Below, in pieces: positions 43,051 through 53,448 of a stretch of 64,000 bases of DNA. The first letter of the stretch is position 1. Each line of letters starts with the position of its first letter. Below the pieces are notes generated by a model that searched no databases, had not been told where the DNA came from, and saw only the letters and a list, made by a program, of their open reading frames with translations. Origin of the DNA: Kordia aestuariivivens (GTDB lineage Bacteria > Bacteroidota > Bacteroidia > Flavobacteriales > Flavobacteriaceae); NCBI RefSeq assembly GCF_014397005.1, contig NZ_JACGWS010000012.1, positions 1 to 64,000 of the forward strand, given 5' to 3'. Both the position numbers and the translations under genes were made by a program.

Positions 43051-43254
43051 CTTTTATAATTTTAGTAGATTTTTTTATTTTTTTTACAAAGGAAATTTGA
43101 CTTTAAATAGATTTTGTCTTGATGTTTTTTAGAACTATCTAAATAGATTCATAATCAAGCGTATACAATTCGTAGACAGGTTGTGTTTTTGTGTGACACT
43201 TCGTTCGTTACTAGAGTAAAATTAATTATATTTCATAAGAAATCTCTAGCAATC

Positions 43255-43728
43255 ATGAACACTCACGTAGACAAAGCTAATAAAAATAAAACTGAAGCTG
43301 CTGCAAATGCAGTTGCCCAAAAGAAAGACAAATCACAAGCTTTCCACTTTACAGACAATCGTCAAAAAACTGCTGTGCAACTCAAAATGCAAGAAACGGC
43401 TAATGACAATTTAGATGTGCAAAAAACATCTATAGTACAATTAGTTCGTAGAGGGAGCGGAGCGCCAGTCTTACATAAACATGCAGATAGTATGAAAAAG
43501 CGAAGACGATTCAAGCGAAGCATAAAAACTGCAATTCGGCGAATACAAGCTATTAAAACTGCAGGACCAGCTACAGAAAGGCAAATAGAAATTCATGATG
43601 AAGTACTTCATTCTGGTCAACATCATGGAATGCGGAATGTTACTGTACAGAAATTAGTTGGTGATCTAAATGACAAAGTTACGGAACTCACCAAGCTAAA
43701 CTTAGAGGAGAGCAATGATCCTAAATAA
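43255..43728 (+). CDS. Small protein with toxin/effector-type N-terminal motif
   Basis: The 157-residue protein starts at ATG 43255 (MNTHVDKANKNK); an upstream start at 43183 would add 24 unlikely residues. FHFTDNRQKTAVQLKMQETA (about residues 31-50) matches the repeated FxDNRPxAxxQxKLQxxAN motif at the N terminus of large Bacteroidota polymorphic toxins and DUF4157-type proteins of extracellular contractile injection systems. In those the motif is repeated before the effector domain; here it occurs once before about 100 basic residues with His-rich patches (LHKHADSMKKRRR; HDEVLHSGQHHGMRN). No toxin fold is recognisable. It is probably a small cargo or a truncated toxin. No immunity gene is adjacent. 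Confidence 0.65.
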   Translation: MNTHVDKANKNKTEAAANAVAQKKDKSQAFHFTDNRQKTAVQLKMQETANDNLDVQKTSIVQLVRRGSGAPVLHKHADSMKKRRRFKRSIKTAIRRIQAIKTAGPATERQIEIHDEVLHSGQHHGMRNVTVQKLVGDLNDKVTELTKLNLEESNDPK

Positions 43729-46507: not shown

Positions 46508-46864
46508 AATTATTAGTTTAAGGGTTTATCCATTTTTCATGTTGAAGATAGGACATAAACCTACTATAAAAATGTTTCTACGCTCAAAACAGGTTGAATT
46601 ACCTAGTTATTTCCGTCAAATTACCTGTAACATATACATGAAAAGTCACTTCGACGATTACATTTCTTAAAACGAAAGCTATTACATCATAATCTATTGG
46701 TATTCATAGGAAACAACCACGAAATAAAGTGTGCGAATACAACCAAGTAGTTCAGCCTGATTTCTCGAAACAGGCTAATCCACTCTTAAACAATATGATG
46801 AGTTTGTAGACATTTGTACAGATTCAAAATAGAATTATCGATTGAGTAGCTGCAATTAAATTTT

Positions 46865-46909
46865 GAACCAACAGGCGGAATCCGAAAAGTCTTAAAAAAC
46901 AGAGTAGGT
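46865..46909 (+). promoter_or_regulatory. Leader element shared with the DUF2589 module (copy B)
   Basis: GAACCAACAGGCGGAAT, then CCGAAAAGTCTTAAAA, then AACAGAGTAGGT: the second copy of the element at 10305-10344. AGGC (46873-46876) pairs with GTCT (46889-46892) by a G-U pair where copy A has a Watson-Crick pair, so the stem is kept. The gene starts 46 bp downstream. A second inverted repeat, AGCCTG/CAGGCT, lies at about 46755-46777. Confidence 0.6.
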
Positions 46910-46955: not shown

Positions 46956-48251
46956 ATGAAAGATAATGCACAAGGGCAAATGCCCTCTTATAGTCACACA
47001 TTTGATATAGACCATACTACAAATGCAGATCAAATTATTATAGTTGCTCGTTTTTATGAAGCTTATGGAAGCAATGGCGGAAGCGATGGATGGGAACAAC
47101 CAGTAACACCTCCCGTTTTACGTTTGGATAATGGTAAAATGGATATTAACATGATTGATATTTTTTCTGCCAATTGTACTAATATTGGAGGATATACATA
47201 TAAACCTTACCAATATGGACAACAAGGTGGTGGATATGATCAGCACGCACAATATTTTGGAGCAAAAGTATTTGCTTCTCAGTATCGAAATTCAAAATCT
47301 TTAACTGTTTCTGGCACTTTTCAATGGGCTGGTTATTTTAGTGTAGTGTTGTATTATTACAATGCGAGTACCGAAACTTTTTTATCTCAAACCGAAATTA
47401 TTGATAAAAAAATGGTCTCTTCGCCTTTACCAAATCCATATATTAAAGGAAACCCTAGTATTTTTTCCTATCCAGATCCATCAGTAATTACATCAAAAAT
47501 TGAGCAATCAAAAATTGAACTTCCTTCTTTTAACTCCAATAAAGGAACAACATTACATGTAGAAAGTGGTAAAGAATCACAAGCTTCCGATCACAAAATT
47601 AACCTGTATAAACCAGATAAAGTGAGTTCTGAAACTAGAATGCTCGAAGGTGTAGTTCCACCTGGTTGTAGTATAGATTACTTGATAACTGATGAGAAAA
47701 ACCCGCCAACACAAGAAGTATTGGTGCTACGTATAAAATTACCCGATGTTTTCATTGAAAATAATAATCCTCCAAAGACTTTTGAAGATTTTGAATGCCG
47801 TTACCTTTCTGTAAGTTTAAATACTCCAGATAGCACTAGTAATCCGAATTATCAAGATCCTGTATTGTACTTTTGGACCGTAACTAGTCACATGCTTTAC
47901 AATCATGTTCATGATGGATATGCTTATGTTTTCTTTGCGCCAACTTCTTTTGTACAGGAACAATTAGATGATCCGCAGCAGCGAACACCTCCAGTGTACA
48001 CTTGGGGAAACATTAAAGGATATCTTTTGGGACCTCCAAAATCTGCTATTGTAATTCGGTATCGTGACCCTAATCCAGAGTGGGAAGGAAGTCCAGAAAG
48101 ATTACCGTGTTATGCAACGCCTGAAGAATGTATGGCAAATCCTGTTGAAGCTCCAATGTTGGGTGAATATAGACCTGAAATATTTGGAGGTAGTCTCGAA
48201 AATTTTCATTCAGGAACTATAGGACCTATCAACTCCGAAGGTGAACGATAG
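46956..48251 (+). CDS. Uncharacterised 431-residue protein heading the sulfatase-tyrosinase cluster
   Basis: No signal peptide: the start is MKDNAQGQMPSYSHTFDIDH. Residues 1-150 look beta-rich (ADQIIIVARFYEAYGSNGG; LTVSGTFQWAGYFSVVLYYYN) and may form a jelly-roll-like or lectin-like domain. Residues 210-420 are a second unit (EVLVLRIKLPDVFIEN; FEDFECRYLSVSLNTPD; SAIVIRYRDPNPEW). I do not recognise either as a family. It shares its leader element with the DUF2589 gene at 10362 and is 217 bp upstream of the sulfatase gene. A binding or scaffold role is a guess. Confidence 0.6.
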   Translation: MKDNAQGQMPSYSHTFDIDHTTNADQIIIVARFYEAYGSNGGSDGWEQPVTPPVLRLDNGKMDINMIDIFSANCTNIGGYTYKPYQYGQQGGGYDQHAQYFGAKVFASQYRNSKSLTVSGTFQWAGYFSVVLYYYNASTETFLSQTEIIDKKMVSSPLPNPYIKGNPSIFSYPDPSVITSKIEQSKIELPSFNSNKGTTLHVESGKESQASDHKINLYKPDKVSSETRMLEGVVPPGCSIDYLITDEKNPPTQEVLVLRIKLPDVFIENNNPPKTFEDFECRYLSVSLNTPDSTSNPNYQDPVLYFWTVTSHMLYNHVHDGYAYVFFAPTSFVQEQLDDPQQRTPPVYTWGNIKGYLLGPPKSAIVIRYRDPNPEWEGSPERLPCYATPEECMANPVEAPMLGEYRPEIFGGSLENFHSGTIGPINSEGER

Positions 48252-48468
48252 ACTGATACTACAAACTAGATTCCACCAAGTATTAAAAAATTGGTTAATT
48301 CTTACTAAAGTATACGAAAAAAAGTGATGTATAGGTTGTCTTAATCGGGCAACCTACATCTAAATAGTACAACTTCTGGTTTTACTGTATCATTATAAGA
48401 AATAGAAAGAGGAAAACCGCTAGCATTCATATCATTAACTATTTTTAAAAGAAATAAAACACAAAGTC

Positions 48469-50205
48469 ATGGGGAAATTAAAAAATCTTAAGAAGCCAAA
48501 CATTGTCATTATTATTTCCGATCAGCAAACTTGGAAACAAAATTGGGATAAAGTATGGACAGAAAATAATTTACCAGCAATGAACAAGTTGTTAAAGAAT
48601 GGACTTGCATTCAACAATGCTTTTACCAATTCATGCACCTGTACATCGAGTCGGACAACACTTTTTACAGGAACTTTTCCTGCGACACACACCGCAACGC
48701 AAGTTTTAGCCTTTGATGATCCTTTCAATAAGCAGAGTCCACCAAAAGGATATACACAAGTAATGCAAGGGCAATTGCGAAACAATATGGACAATATGTT
48801 TGAAATGATGGAAAGCGCAGGATACAATGTTGCGTATAAAGGCAAATGGCATATTAGCAAACCAACGGAATTTGTGAAAATGAAAGGAAAAGGGCCGCTA
48901 AAACCAGATATCGATCAATTATATTGGACTTCTAAAGATGTTTCACAGTTAGATAAATTGTATGGTGTGAAAGAATGGAGTTATCCGGATGCTGGAGACG
49001 ACGCTAATATTTTTAATTTTGGTGGCGGACGCTTCAATAATGACGGTCGCTTTGTAGATGGTGAAGGTCAAAGTGCTTTGTATGGTAAAAAACTTCCAGG
49101 GATGAGCGTTGAAGAATCAAATGCAGAACGATTGAAAACAAGTGCTTTAGAATACATCAAAAATTATAAAGATGACAAACCCTTGTTTTTGGTGGTTTCG
49201 CTTGTCAATCCTCATGATGTATTGTCGTATCCAGGCAATGAAACCATGACAGATCCTTATGGAGTTCCAAGAGAGCCACCTTTGTATAAACTTGGTGGAT
49301 ATGATGATGATTTTAAGTGTATTAAAGTAAAATTGCCATCAACATGGGATGAAAAACTAGATACAAAACCCAAAATTCAGGCTACTTGGCAAAAAATGTT
49401 ACAAGGATTTGGCGCGATCAAAACAGAAGAAGTTGCTACAAACTATGTGAAGTTTTATGCATACCTAACTTCTTTGGTTGATAAGGAAATAGATAAAGTT
49501 TTAAAGGCACTGAAAAAAAATAAAAAAACAAGAAACTCTTTAATTATTAGAGTGAGTGATCATGGAGATATGGCAATGTCACACGGTATGATACGTCAAA
49601 AAATGTTCAATGCATATCAGCAAACCATCAATGTACCCATGATATTTTCGCACCTTACCGATCGAAAGATGTTTTCAGGAAAAACGACAGAATCTTTTGC
49701 AGGATTGATTGACTTGATGCCAACAATAGCTGAAATTGCGGGTGTTAAGACTGAAAATTATAAATTTCAAGGGAAGAGTTTGGTGCGGATTTTAAAGAAT
49801 CCAACTAAAAAAGTACAAGATCATGTTCATTTTACATTTGATGATAGTTATCTTGAAACTGACACACCTCAGGATATGGGCGCTTGCCGTATTCGTTGTA
49901 TTATTCAAACGAAAGGCAATCAGAAATGGAAATATGCGGTGTATTTTGATCCTAATTATGGACAGGAAATGGAATATGAAATGTATGACATGACCAACGA
50001 TCCGGAAGAAAGATACAACTTAGCATATAGCGACTTGAAGAAGGTTATAAAACTTTATAACGGATCTAAAAAAGATAAAATTAAAAAAGGATTCGTTCTG
50101 AAAAAACGTCAAGAATTGCATAAGCTATTGACAAAAGTAATGATTGAAAAAGGCACGATGCCAGATACGGTTGTTTGGCCAAAGATTTCAGGAGGAAAGG
50201 CATAG
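48469..50205 (+). CDS. Sulfatase-family hydrolase, leaderless, with CTSSR active-site motif
   Basis: The 578-residue protein has NIVIIISDQQTW (N-terminal metal Asp), CTCTSSRTTLFTG (the formylglycine site, CxPSR in most sulfatases, here CTSSR), YKGKWHISKP (Lys/His) and RVSDHGDMAMSHGM (metal Asp/His). It also has the C-terminal subdomain text MTNDPEERYNLA. The other active-site residues are present, so activity is possible if the maturase accepts Ser for Pro. No signal peptide is visible (MGKLKNLKKPNIVII), unusual for bacterial sulfatases, which mostly act in the periplasm. It is 112 bp before the tyrosinase-like gene. Confidence 0.85.
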   Translation: MGKLKNLKKPNIVIIISDQQTWKQNWDKVWTENNLPAMNKLLKNGLAFNNAFTNSCTCTSSRTTLFTGTFPATHTATQVLAFDDPFNKQSPPKGYTQVMQGQLRNNMDNMFEMMESAGYNVAYKGKWHISKPTEFVKMKGKGPLKPDIDQLYWTSKDVSQLDKLYGVKEWSYPDAGDDANIFNFGGGRFNNDGRFVDGEGQSALYGKKLPGMSVEESNAERLKTSALEYIKNYKDDKPLFLVVSLVNPHDVLSYPGNETMTDPYGVPREPPLYKLGGYDDDFKCIKVKLPSTWDEKLDTKPKIQATWQKMLQGFGAIKTEEVATNYVKFYAYLTSLVDKEIDKVLKALKKNKKTRNSLIIRVSDHGDMAMSHGMIRQKMFNAYQQTINVPMIFSHLTDRKMFSGKTTESFAGLIDLMPTIAEIAGVKTENYKFQGKSLVRILKNPTKKVQDHVHFTFDDSYLETDTPQDMGACRIRCIIQTKGNQKWKYAVYFDPNYGQEMEYEMYDMTNDPEERYNLAYSDLKKVIKLYNGSKKDKIKKGFVLKKRQELHKLLTKVMIEKGTMPDTVVWPKISGGKA

Positions 50206-50317
50206 CACTCAAAATTTGATCGTAAACTACTTAATTTTTTTGTGTAAATTACTTGAAGATTTACTGAAAAGATGCATTCGTTCTTATCATTACTATTAAC
50301 CTTTAAAAAACCAAAAT

Positions 50318-51121
50318 ATGAGTAAAAAAGACGTTCACGTTCGGAAAAGTGTGTATGACCTTTCGGAAAGAGAAATATCGAATTTGCGAAAAGCTTTTGA
50401 AAAGTTATATAAAAACCGAGTATATCAGGAAAAAGCCGGAATTCTCATCAACGACGGTCATTACATGCGAAATGATATGCTTTTTTTACCATGGGCACGC
50501 GCTTATTTTGCAGATTTTGAAAAAGCACTTCAAGCGGCGATTCCTAATGCGAAACCTGTCATTACGTTGCCTTACTGGGATTACACTTCCAAAACAGCAA
50601 GAGAAGAAGGGATTCCTCCGTTATTGGCAGATGAGTATTATGAAACCACCAAAAAGGATAAAAATGGTGTTGAAAAAATCACAAAAAATCCAAATCCATT
50701 TTACAAGGCTGAATATAACATTCCTTTATACACGTTTAGAAATGATGTGCCAAATAATAAATTTTTAAAGTCAGCACGAAACTCAGCTCGTAAAGCAATG
50801 AAGGCAATTGATTTTGTAACTTTTGGTACAAAAATTTATGTAGCAGATATAAAAAGCCATATCTATTTAGGCGGTTCGTCTGCGAATACTAATTGCACAG
50901 CGTACGATCCTATTTTTTGGTTTACGCATTGTCAGTTAGATCGTTTTTGGGATCAATGGCAAAGACTACCAAAGCGCAAAGATCTTGGCGAATCTACGAT
51001 GCCCGATTCTGTTTTGAATGCGAGTTTAAACCCATTTAGCAAAGATGACGACGATGAAACGGCATTGAAAGCTGAAGATGTATTGAACACAAAGAATCTT
51101 GGGTATCGATATGCGGATTGA
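50318..51121 (+). CDS. Tyrosinase-like protein with degenerate copper sites
   Basis: The 267-residue protein keeps the frame of the type-3 copper domain: DGHYMRNDMLFLPWARAYF, KPVITLPYWDYTS, KSHIYLGGSS and DPIFWFTHCQLDRFWDQWQ. In active tyrosinases the first of these reads FLPWHR; here the CuA His is Ala. No His exists where the first CuA ligand is expected. The first CuB His, four residues before the His of KSHIYLGG, is Asp. About three of six ligands remain. No signal or twin-arginine leader is present. It is likely a non-catalytic relative, last gene of its cluster. Confidence 0.8.
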   Translation: MSKKDVHVRKSVYDLSEREISNLRKAFEKLYKNRVYQEKAGILINDGHYMRNDMLFLPWARAYFADFEKALQAAIPNAKPVITLPYWDYTSKTAREEGIPPLLADEYYETTKKDKNGVEKITKNPNPFYKAEYNIPLYTFRNDVPNNKFLKSARNSARKAMKAIDFVTFGTKIYVADIKSHIYLGGSSANTNCTAYDPIFWFTHCQLDRFWDQWQRLPKRKDLGESTMPDSVLNASLNPFSKDDDDETALKAEDVLNTKNLGYRYAD

Positions 51122-51935: not shown

Positions 51936-53102
51936 TTGTATAGCAAAAATGAAGGGCAACAATTTACAGTACTACCTGCTTTTGTTATTATGGCCAATCA
52001 AGAAAGTGCTTTTTGGAAGAATATTCAAACAGGTGGAGAGTATTTAATAGATGCTATTACTACACTTTCAGGTGTTGGAAACTTAGCTAAGTTTAGACAC
52101 TTGAGTAAGCTTGCTAAATTAGGACATAAACTAACTTTAGCAAATAAAGCTAAAAGAGTTGTTTCTGGATTTGCTGCCTTTGCAGAAATATCAAGTGGAA
52201 CTATTAACACTTTATTAAAACTTAGTGGATTAAATGATACTAAATTTGGGCAATCATTAAGTGAAGTTCTTTTTTATCTGGAATTGGTGTCTTTAGGAGG
52301 TGAGCTGACTAATGCTATTCGTAATGGATTAAAAAAAGCCTCGAAAGAAGTTTTGGAACATCCAAATCTAAAAAAGTATTTGGATGAGGTAAAAATTGAT
52401 TTACCTAATGGAAAAAAACGCAAGCTTAGTCCCAAAGAAAAAATCCAACTTAAAAATGAACTTAAACAAGTACAGGGTAAAGGAGGAGCTTATGGAGATT
52501 CAATAATAGCTACATCTGACCCTGTTAAAGTAAAACAGTTTGAAGAAGGTTATAAAAAACTTTTAAAATTAAACTTACATTTGAATCCTGAAAAAGCCAT
52601 AAATTATCTAGAAGACGCTATGCCACATTTTAACCACAAAGTTGTTGATGGTGAAATTATTCAAATAAGTAAAACGAATTGCGGTAATACCGTAGAGGTA
52701 ATGAAAGATTTTATAAGGCACGGAAAATTAGATAAAGCAGGAAAATCTGGATTTCAAACCTTTGATGTAGTTACGCCAAAATTTGGACATGGCTCCTTTG
52801 TGGACATACATAAGACGATTGACACATCAGCTATTCCTAGGCTAGAACAAATAATGAAAAACGGTGACGAAGTTGTGATCTATGGAATGCAGCACAAAAA
52901 GACAGTAAAAGGAGCAAGAGGAGAAGTAGCTGAAAAGTCGATAGGACATTATTTTTATGGCAAGAAAATTCAAGGGAAACTACATATAGGCGATCCTCAA
53001 ACAGGTGAGTTTTTTGTATTTTCAGCATCAAGTAGAAAGGCTCATGAATACCTAAATATAGTAGGTAAAGATGGATTCAAATATCTAACAGTAAAAAATT
53101 AA
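51936..53102 (+). CDS. Polymorphic toxin C-terminal region, papain-like peptidase/deamidase type
   Basis: The 388-residue reading from TTG 51936 (first ATG at 51990) is the C-terminal part of a 5'-truncated toxin. A pre-toxin segment with hydrophobic and Lys-rich helices spans residues 20-200. The toxin domain, about 230-388, has SKTNCGNTVEVMKDFI (Cys), then SIGHYFYGKKI (His) and LHIGDPQTGEF (Asp): the Cys-His-Asp order and GHxF/GDxQTG text of papain-like toxins. Such domains cleave or deamidate target proteins. The immunity gene follows after 7 bp. Whether it is still expressed without its N-terminal secretion part is unclear. Confidence 0.7.
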   Translation: MYSKNEGQQFTVLPAFVIMANQESAFWKNIQTGGEYLIDAITTLSGVGNLAKFRHLSKLAKLGHKLTLANKAKRVVSGFAAFAEISSGTINTLLKLSGLNDTKFGQSLSEVLFYLELVSLGGELTNAIRNGLKKASKEVLEHPNLKKYLDEVKIDLPNGKKRKLSPKEKIQLKNELKQVQGKGGAYGDSIIATSDPVKVKQFEEGYKKLLKLNLHLNPEKAINYLEDAMPHFNHKVVDGEIIQISKTNCGNTVEVMKDFIRHGKLDKAGKSGFQTFDVVTPKFGHGSFVDIHKTIDTSAIPRLEQIMKNGDEVVIYGMQHKKTVKGARGEVAEKSIGHYFYGKKIQGKLHIGDPQTGEFFVFSASSRKAHEYLNIVGKDGFKYLTVKN

Positions 53103-53109
53103 AAAAACT

Positions 53110-53448
53110 ATGCTAACAGACAATGAAATGCTAGAAATAGCAGAAAAGTATTTAAAAAGATTAGAAGATGAAGGAACGATCAAGTTAATGTTGCATTCAG
53201 ATTTTACGAAAAAAGACTATGGTAATATTTACTTTTTTAATAGTAAGCTATATATTGAAACAGGTGATTTAAATAAATCAATCGGAGGAAATGGACCATT
53301 TTTAGTTGAAAAAGAAAAAGGTAGAGTTGTGCAATTTGGCTCTTTTGGGCTAATAGAAGATCAATTCAAGGCTTATGAAAATGGAACTTTGGTACCAGCT
53401 TTAGACACTTATTGGTATCCTGACGAAGACCGGTTTAGTCATAAATAG
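53110..53448 (+). CDS. Imm35-like immunity protein
   Basis: The 112-residue acidic protein has the text IYFFNSKLYIETGD, GGNGPFLVEKEKGRVVQFG and FKAYENG, which follows the Imm35 pattern (F-x-x-S-x-x-Y-x-E-T-G-D, G-N-G-P-F-x-V, G-x-V). Imm35 proteins are encoded right behind polymorphic toxins and neutralise them, probably by binding. The 7-bp spacing to the toxin gene supports the pairing. The family assignment is from memory of its pattern. Confidence 0.7.
   Translation: MLTDNEMLEIAEKYLKRLEDEGTIKLMLHSDFTKKDYGNIYFFNSKLYIETGDLNKSIGGNGPFLVEKEKGRVVQFGSFGLIEDQFKAYENGTLVPALDTYWYPDEDRFSHK

Follow-up and report, generated by a model that had tools for sequence, protein, structure and literature searches.

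Closest described systems and organization of the cluster

Bacterial tyrosinases and molluscan hemocyanin units are type-3 copper proteins (PF00264). The six canonical ligands of a Streptomyces tyrosinase are listed in PMC6312201 as His38, His54 and His63 and His190, His194 and His216. According to the account in PMC5855855, zinc replaces copper in the mammalian tyrosinase-related proteins 1 and 2, and Trp2 has a non-redox tautomerase activity. The 64,000-nucleotide stretch of Kordia aestuariivivens DNA analysed here (the window, meaning the whole stretch) contains a cluster of three genes, the last of which (gene 3) encodes a tyrosinase-fold protein with altered metal ligands and follows a sulfatase-family gene (gene 2). 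Unlike the type-3 copper proteins, the gene 3 family lacks the third copper-A histidine and has Asp in place of the first copper-B histidine. It is similar to the mammalian tyrosinase-related proteins in that both belong to the tyrosinase family and, for gene 3 putatively, hold another metal, but two metal sites are described for the mammalian proteins, whereas in the Kordia family residues for no more than one are left.

The cluster comprises three open reading frames (ORFs) on the + strand, namely gene 1 (46956–48251; 431 amino acids, aa), gene 2 (48469–50205; 578 aa), and gene 3 (50318–51121; 267 aa). An earlier annotation of this DNA, hereafter the sequence-only reading, had reported three same-strand genes encoding a protein of no known family, a sulfatase, and a tyrosinase-like protein, all of which agrees with the ORF coordinates and with our family searches. 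Gene 2 matches PF00884 with 123.5 bits (cut-off 25; E = 1.5e-35) and gene 3 matches PF00264 with 85.3 bits (cut-off 22.6; E = 1e-23), and for gene 1, whose family is uncatalogued, there is no Pfam match, even at E as high as 1, and no accepted NCBIfam or PHROG match. In the reading that we favour, to which we give about even chances, the locus is a cytosolic two-gene module, encoding a tyrosinase-fold protein and an enzyme of the sulfatase family, preceded by a first gene that can be exchanged. The sulfatase would cleave a small sulfate ester present in the cytosol. The tyrosinase-fold protein would hold a single metal ion, which could be Fe, Zn, or Cu, with Asp177, His181, and His204 as ligands, and would act on that compound or a related one by chemistry other than that of a tyrosinase. 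A function specific to the lineage would be contributed, under the shared upstream region, by gene 1 or by the DUF1254 protein found in its place in a relative.

Metal ligands of the tyrosinase-fold protein

Gene 3 has the tyrosinase/hemocyanin fold but neither of its complete histidine triplets. Ligand positions were tabulated for distinct proteins only, i.e. 5 gene 3 family members and 48 others. At the third copper-A position (Ala60; codon 50495–50497, +), where WHR has become WAR, all five members have Ala or Asn, and His is present in all 43 other proteins that cover the position. Of the remaining two copper-A histidines, at most His48 (codon 50459–50461, +) is left, a residue that is invariant in the five proteins and lies in the loop ahead of the lost ligand. 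The copper-B positions read Asp, His, His in every member. The first of these is Asp177 (codon 50846–50848, +); the 39 other proteins covering it have His (24), Asp (1), or other residues (14), counts that reflect an uncertain alignment at this position, because a His-x3-His motif occurs within 60 residues before DPxF in 48 of the 48 others. His181 (codon 50858–50860, +) and His204 (codon 50927–50929, +), the second and third copper-B histidines, are retained in all members and are found in 33 of 40 and 45 of 45 of the other proteins, respectively. Asp177, His181, and His204 are unchanged across the five proteins, down to 39% identity, and fall in two helices of the predicted model.

Alignments to hemocyanin units made with phmmer place the third copper-A and the copper-B ligands in the same columns. 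They disagree on the copper-A loop: in one displayed alignment the first two copper-A histidines sit in insertions, and in another His48 is the only query histidine that faces a histidine of the hemocyanin unit, so that it may be what is left, in a shifted position, of a copper-A ligand. Judged by its ligand residues, gene 3 does not qualify as a functional tyrosinase, and a true tyrosinase was ruled out as a candidate identity. It is possible, and we propose this only tentatively, that a tyrosinase fold has in these bacteria become a mononuclear enzyme, perhaps an Fe-dependent oxygenase or a Zn isomerase, that has Asp177, His181, and His204 as its 2-His-1-carboxylate triad and acts beside the sulfatase. 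Such an Asp-His-His site in a tyrosinase fold, as yet unproven, would be the strongest novelty of the locus. If this is correct, a dicopper oxidase fold can be converted to a single-metal enzyme, and intact relatives are available for comparison.

The five members form a compact group. A hidden Markov model (HMM) built from four of them gave 60 matches, duplicates included, among the open frames of the fetched loci; family members, which are about 260 aa long, scored at least 360 bits, whereas all other matches, in open frames of 399 to 1,068 residues, scored 81.3 bits or less, a gap that describes this sample only, because the loci had been fetched by similarity to the gene 3 protein. No members beyond the five were found in searches of family and phylum genomes, genome contigs, plasmids, and viral contigs. 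Matches to gene 3 occurred in 10 of 199 family genomes (strong only in its own genome and in G179, the rest at E = 1.5e-6 or weaker) and in 14 of 395 phylum genomes, where the best other score was 64.2 bits. The genome contigs yielded 35 loci, three of them belonging to the small family, and the viral contigs one (L114, 30%). The 37 plasmid records, with a best identity of 29.6% among the matches listed, were left out of the ligand table.

Conservation of the sulfatase and gene 3 pair

A second Kordia genome, G202, has the same gene order, with a sulfatase and a tyrosinase-like protein that are 85 and 81% identical to those of the window, and shares the left flank of the window; frames of its right flank have no match there. 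By Nei-Gojobori counting, dN/dS between the two loci is 0.077 for the sulfatase and 0.152 for gene 3. The sulfatase and tyrosinase-like genes are thus a conserved pair under purifying selection, and the adjacency pointed out in the sequence-only reading is real. Altogether, the gene 3 family is present in 4 of 11 Kordia genomes and the intact pair in two. In Kordia jejudonensis the tyrosinase-like gene (79% identity) is directly preceded only by a sulfatase tail (43 aligned residues, 67% identity). In Kordia periserrulae (40% identity) and in a Saprospiraceae metagenome-assembled genome (MAG; 58–61% identity), in which the contig stops 1.9 kb upstream, no adjoining sulfatase gene was seen by eye.

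The open-access literature searched offered nothing on point for tyrosinase together with sulfatase and Kordia, tyrosinase pseudoenzymes (PMC4364613 surfaced), a tyrosinase facial triad, tyrosinases lacking copper A, sulfatase motif variants, DUF1254/DUF1214, or Karamoja plasmids, and the available part of the Kordia comparative genome paper PMC7477175 does not mention tyrosinase.

The leaderless sulfatase-family protein

The nucleophile motif of gene 2, CTSSR (48640–48654, +), starts at residue 58 of the protein, which also has Asp18 and GKWH, NPH, and SDHG motifs; we take Cys58 and these elements to have their usual catalytic roles. Gene 2 shares the PF00884 match and the GKxH, NPH, and SDHG motifs with the choline-sulfatase/arylsulfatase branch of the family, but differs in its CTSSR motif (CTASR in G202) and in scoring far below the NCBIfam equivalog cut-offs (94.9 of 433.45 bits for choline-sulfatase and 133.5 of 481 bits for arylsulfatase). 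Paralogues with CSPSR that are also leaderless, as judged by eye from their N-termini, occur in 7 of 11 Kordia genomes, including its own, and are 34–36% identical to gene 2 by blastp, or 41–43% over matching segments. Near the paralogue in its own genome, at a distance of about 2 kb, lies a gene for a phosphoesterase-like protein with no obvious leader by eye (L040, 3610–5226).

None of the three products has a recognizable signal peptide, as the sequence-only reading had stated, and corrected start sites provide none. The in-frame room upstream to the previous stop is 1, 10, and 6 codons for genes 1, 2, and 3, respectively, and the highest Kyte-Doolittle hydrophobicity over 12 N-terminal residues is 1.09, 0.73, and -0.39, compared with 3.19 for the control, one lipoprotein-like protein of the same window. 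Judging from the seven genomes with leaderless paralogues, the leaderless state is ordinary for this sulfatase.

Replacement of the first gene

The slot ahead of the sulfatase in G202 is occupied by a gene for a 528-aa protein with DUF1254 (E = 1e-26) and DUF1214 (E = 6e-16) domains (PF06863 and PF06742), neither of which is matched by gene 1. A short match between the gene 1 N-terminus and the end of DUF1214 (hhalign P = 0.018, probability 2.6%) was rejected. Traces of the exchange lie on both sides of gene 1. Upstream, 46736–46908 (+) aligns by blastn (70% identity, 174 columns) with the sequence immediately ahead of the G202 DUF1254 gene and is probably the promoter or leader region of the slot gene. 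Downstream, 48252–48375, beginning at the base after the gene 1 stop, matches the end of that gene plus its spacer at 73% nucleotide identity; the first 13 codons, one of them a stop (48252–48290, +), read TDTTN*IPPSIKK against TDNTNWIPPSIVK, the matching end of the DUF1254 protein in G202, and appear to be a 3' remnant of the replaced gene. On the simplest reading, an earlier DUF1254 gene of the window lineage was erased down to its end when gene 1 came in. Two of the 11 Kordia genomes contain DUF1254; none was found by a search of the genome that carries the window.

Gene 1 is a replaceable neighbour and a late-coming part of the cluster. It had no match in the other 10 genomes of the genus or in the other 198 family genomes searched, and a different gene fills its slot in G202; a fixed three-gene assembly was rejected on these grounds. 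The three-protein cytoplasmic assembly put forward in the sequence-only reading is unsupported, because the slot holds a DUF1254/DUF1214 gene in G202 and because gene 3 occurs without an adjoining intact sulfatase in K. periserrulae, K. jejudonensis, and the Saprospiraceae MAG. Linkage of the intact sulfatase and gene 3 was recovered in 2 of 11 Kordia genomes, and in the relative among them, G202, gene 1 has no part in it. The swap ahead of the pair represents a within-genus case of gene replacement under a retained upstream region.

Relatives of gene 1

Relatives of gene 1 were found in 2 of 72,556 plasmid records, both from Salmonella and at two places in each. On plasmid pRSE21 (Salmonella Karamoja), two tandem genes encode proteins of 422 and 425 aa (WP_168445675 and WP_168445676) that are 38–39% identical to full-length gene 1. 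Ahead of them on the same strand are genes for a holin (PF16931, 1.5e-14), an M15 peptidase (PF13539, 2.6e-9), and an FN3 protein, so that a holin and a peptidoglycan hydrolase, the pair that marks a type 10 secretion locus, are present upstream; a gene for a LysR regulator lies nearby on the opposite strand. Unlike the window, the stretches listed for pRSE21 contain no gene annotated as sulfatase or tyrosinase, and its gene 1 relatives are tandem copies. Lysis-type export is a fair lead for these Salmonella proteins (a Salmonella Typhimurium study, PMC10109510, is cited in this connection), and their release may be holin-dependent. Gene 1 points to a family, without Pfam or NCBIfam match here, whose members occur both in a marine flavobacterium and beside the holin and peptidase genes of a Salmonella plasmid.

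Among viral contigs, two scans returned a single locus, the provirus contig L110, in which a third relative is interrupted by a frame change; about 2 kb from it (299–2334) are open frames that resemble an alkylsulfatase of the metallo-beta-lactamase fold. No relatives were found in 50,697 phage records, in genome contigs with a single-sequence query, or, with the DNA of a Salmonella relative, in 20,395 Escherichia coli records. Nine matches in phylum genomes other than its own (395 genomes; E = 0.0027 to 0.047 at a threshold of 0.05, five with internal stops) were not accepted. A gene 1 profile run against 395 class genomes gave one remote relative, in G866 (Bacteroidota), which is supported by hhalign (probability 93.5%) over residues 82–171 only; inspection by eye of the listed ORFs of at least 200 aa around it showed neither a sulfatase nor a tyrosinase. 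The structure model of gene 1 from a two-row alignment was poor (pLDDT 41.0), and no hit below E = 0.2 was obtained among solved structures, whether the query was gene 1, a Salmonella relative, a three-row profile, or the G866 relative. A remote relative of 418 aa in a Bacteroidota genome (L124, 8930–10186) has a membrane-anchor-like N-terminus and no Pfam or NCBIfam match, and a Parabacteroides plasmid encodes a protein 28% identical to it.

Weighing of the alternatives

Several observations weigh against the two-gene module. CTSSR departs from the signature of formylglycine sulfatases given in PMC6189696, (C/S)-x-(P/A)-x-R, to which the CTASR of G202 conforms, and gene 2 is therefore classed as a PF00884 protein and at most a candidate formylglycine sulfatase. 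Searches of its own genome with PF03781 and TIGR03942 revealed no sulfatase-maturing enzyme of the cytosol: the three PF03781 proteins have lipoprotein-like or secretion-like N-termini by eye, and none of the five TIGR03942 matches is above the cut-off. Choline-sulfatase left unmodified is described, also in PMC6189696, as still turning over slowly. Three of the five gene 3 carriers found have no adjoining intact sulfatase, and the two proteins therefore need not share a pathway. Finally, the spacers of 217 bp (genes 1 and 2) and 112 bp (genes 2 and 3), with an RNA hairpin in the first (48326–48360, +; -16.3 kcal/mol, z = -4.9; not listed as terminator-like), mean that the genes may or may not form a single operon. 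The corresponding spacer of G202 has a weaker hairpin (z = -2.3).

Gene 3 might instead be a pseudoenzyme, i.e. a metal-free tyrosinase fold kept for binding or structure, with the sulfatase as the sole enzyme of the pair. The loss of the third copper-A ligand and the change of a copper-B ligand in all five members are consistent with this, as is the presence, by eye, of other genes next to gene 3 relatives in two genomes. A plain scaffold, however, would not need to keep three residues of ligand type at a single place where a metal once sat, and both their invariance in the divergent members and the purifying selection on gene 3 argue against it; we regard a pseudoenzyme as rather doubtful.

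A cargo set, in which leaderless proteins would be kept in the cytosol, freed by a holin/peptidoglycan-hydrolase (type 10) or other lysis route, and act outside the cell, is clearly unlikely. Its one indirect lead, the position of the Salmonella gene 1 relatives behind the holin, M15 peptidase, and FN3 genes near the LysR regulator, bears on the export idea of the sequence-only reading, but the lead is weak for the window because gene 1, a late-comer here, is all that the two stretches have in common. A Pfam scan of the three genes and seven neighbouring window proteins, to which the search was confined in this genome, revealed neither a holin nor a hydrolase family, and inspection by eye of the surroundings of this genome's leaderless sulfatase paralogue gave no sign of one. 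Least probable, to the point of being nearly negligible, is a pathway that would handle a sulfated phenolic compound and include genuine tyrosinase chemistry, also proposed in the sequence-only reading: both family matches exceed their Pfam cut-offs, but the missing third copper-A histidine makes such a pathway unlikely, and the Asp at the first copper-B position and the displaced histidines of the copper-A loop also speak against it.

Transcription signals and flanking genes

No full match to a flavobacterial promoter consensus was found upstream of the three starts. Numbers of sigma-70-like sites (28 against 21.1 expected, sd 4.1) and terminator-like sites (4 against 2.7, sd 1.6) were near chance.

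To the left of the cluster, on the - strand, are genes judged by eye from their translations to encode a lipoprotein, a membrane protein, a histidine kinase, and a response regulator. The N-terminus of a 181-aa protein (43183–43728) resembles the leader of contractile injection system cargo proteins, a likeness for which library searches gave no supporting match. To the right, at 51936–53448, a 388-aa protein without Pfam family is followed by an Imm35 protein (6e-7), a toxin-immunity-like pair in whose place G202 has a MurB-like gene (by eye).

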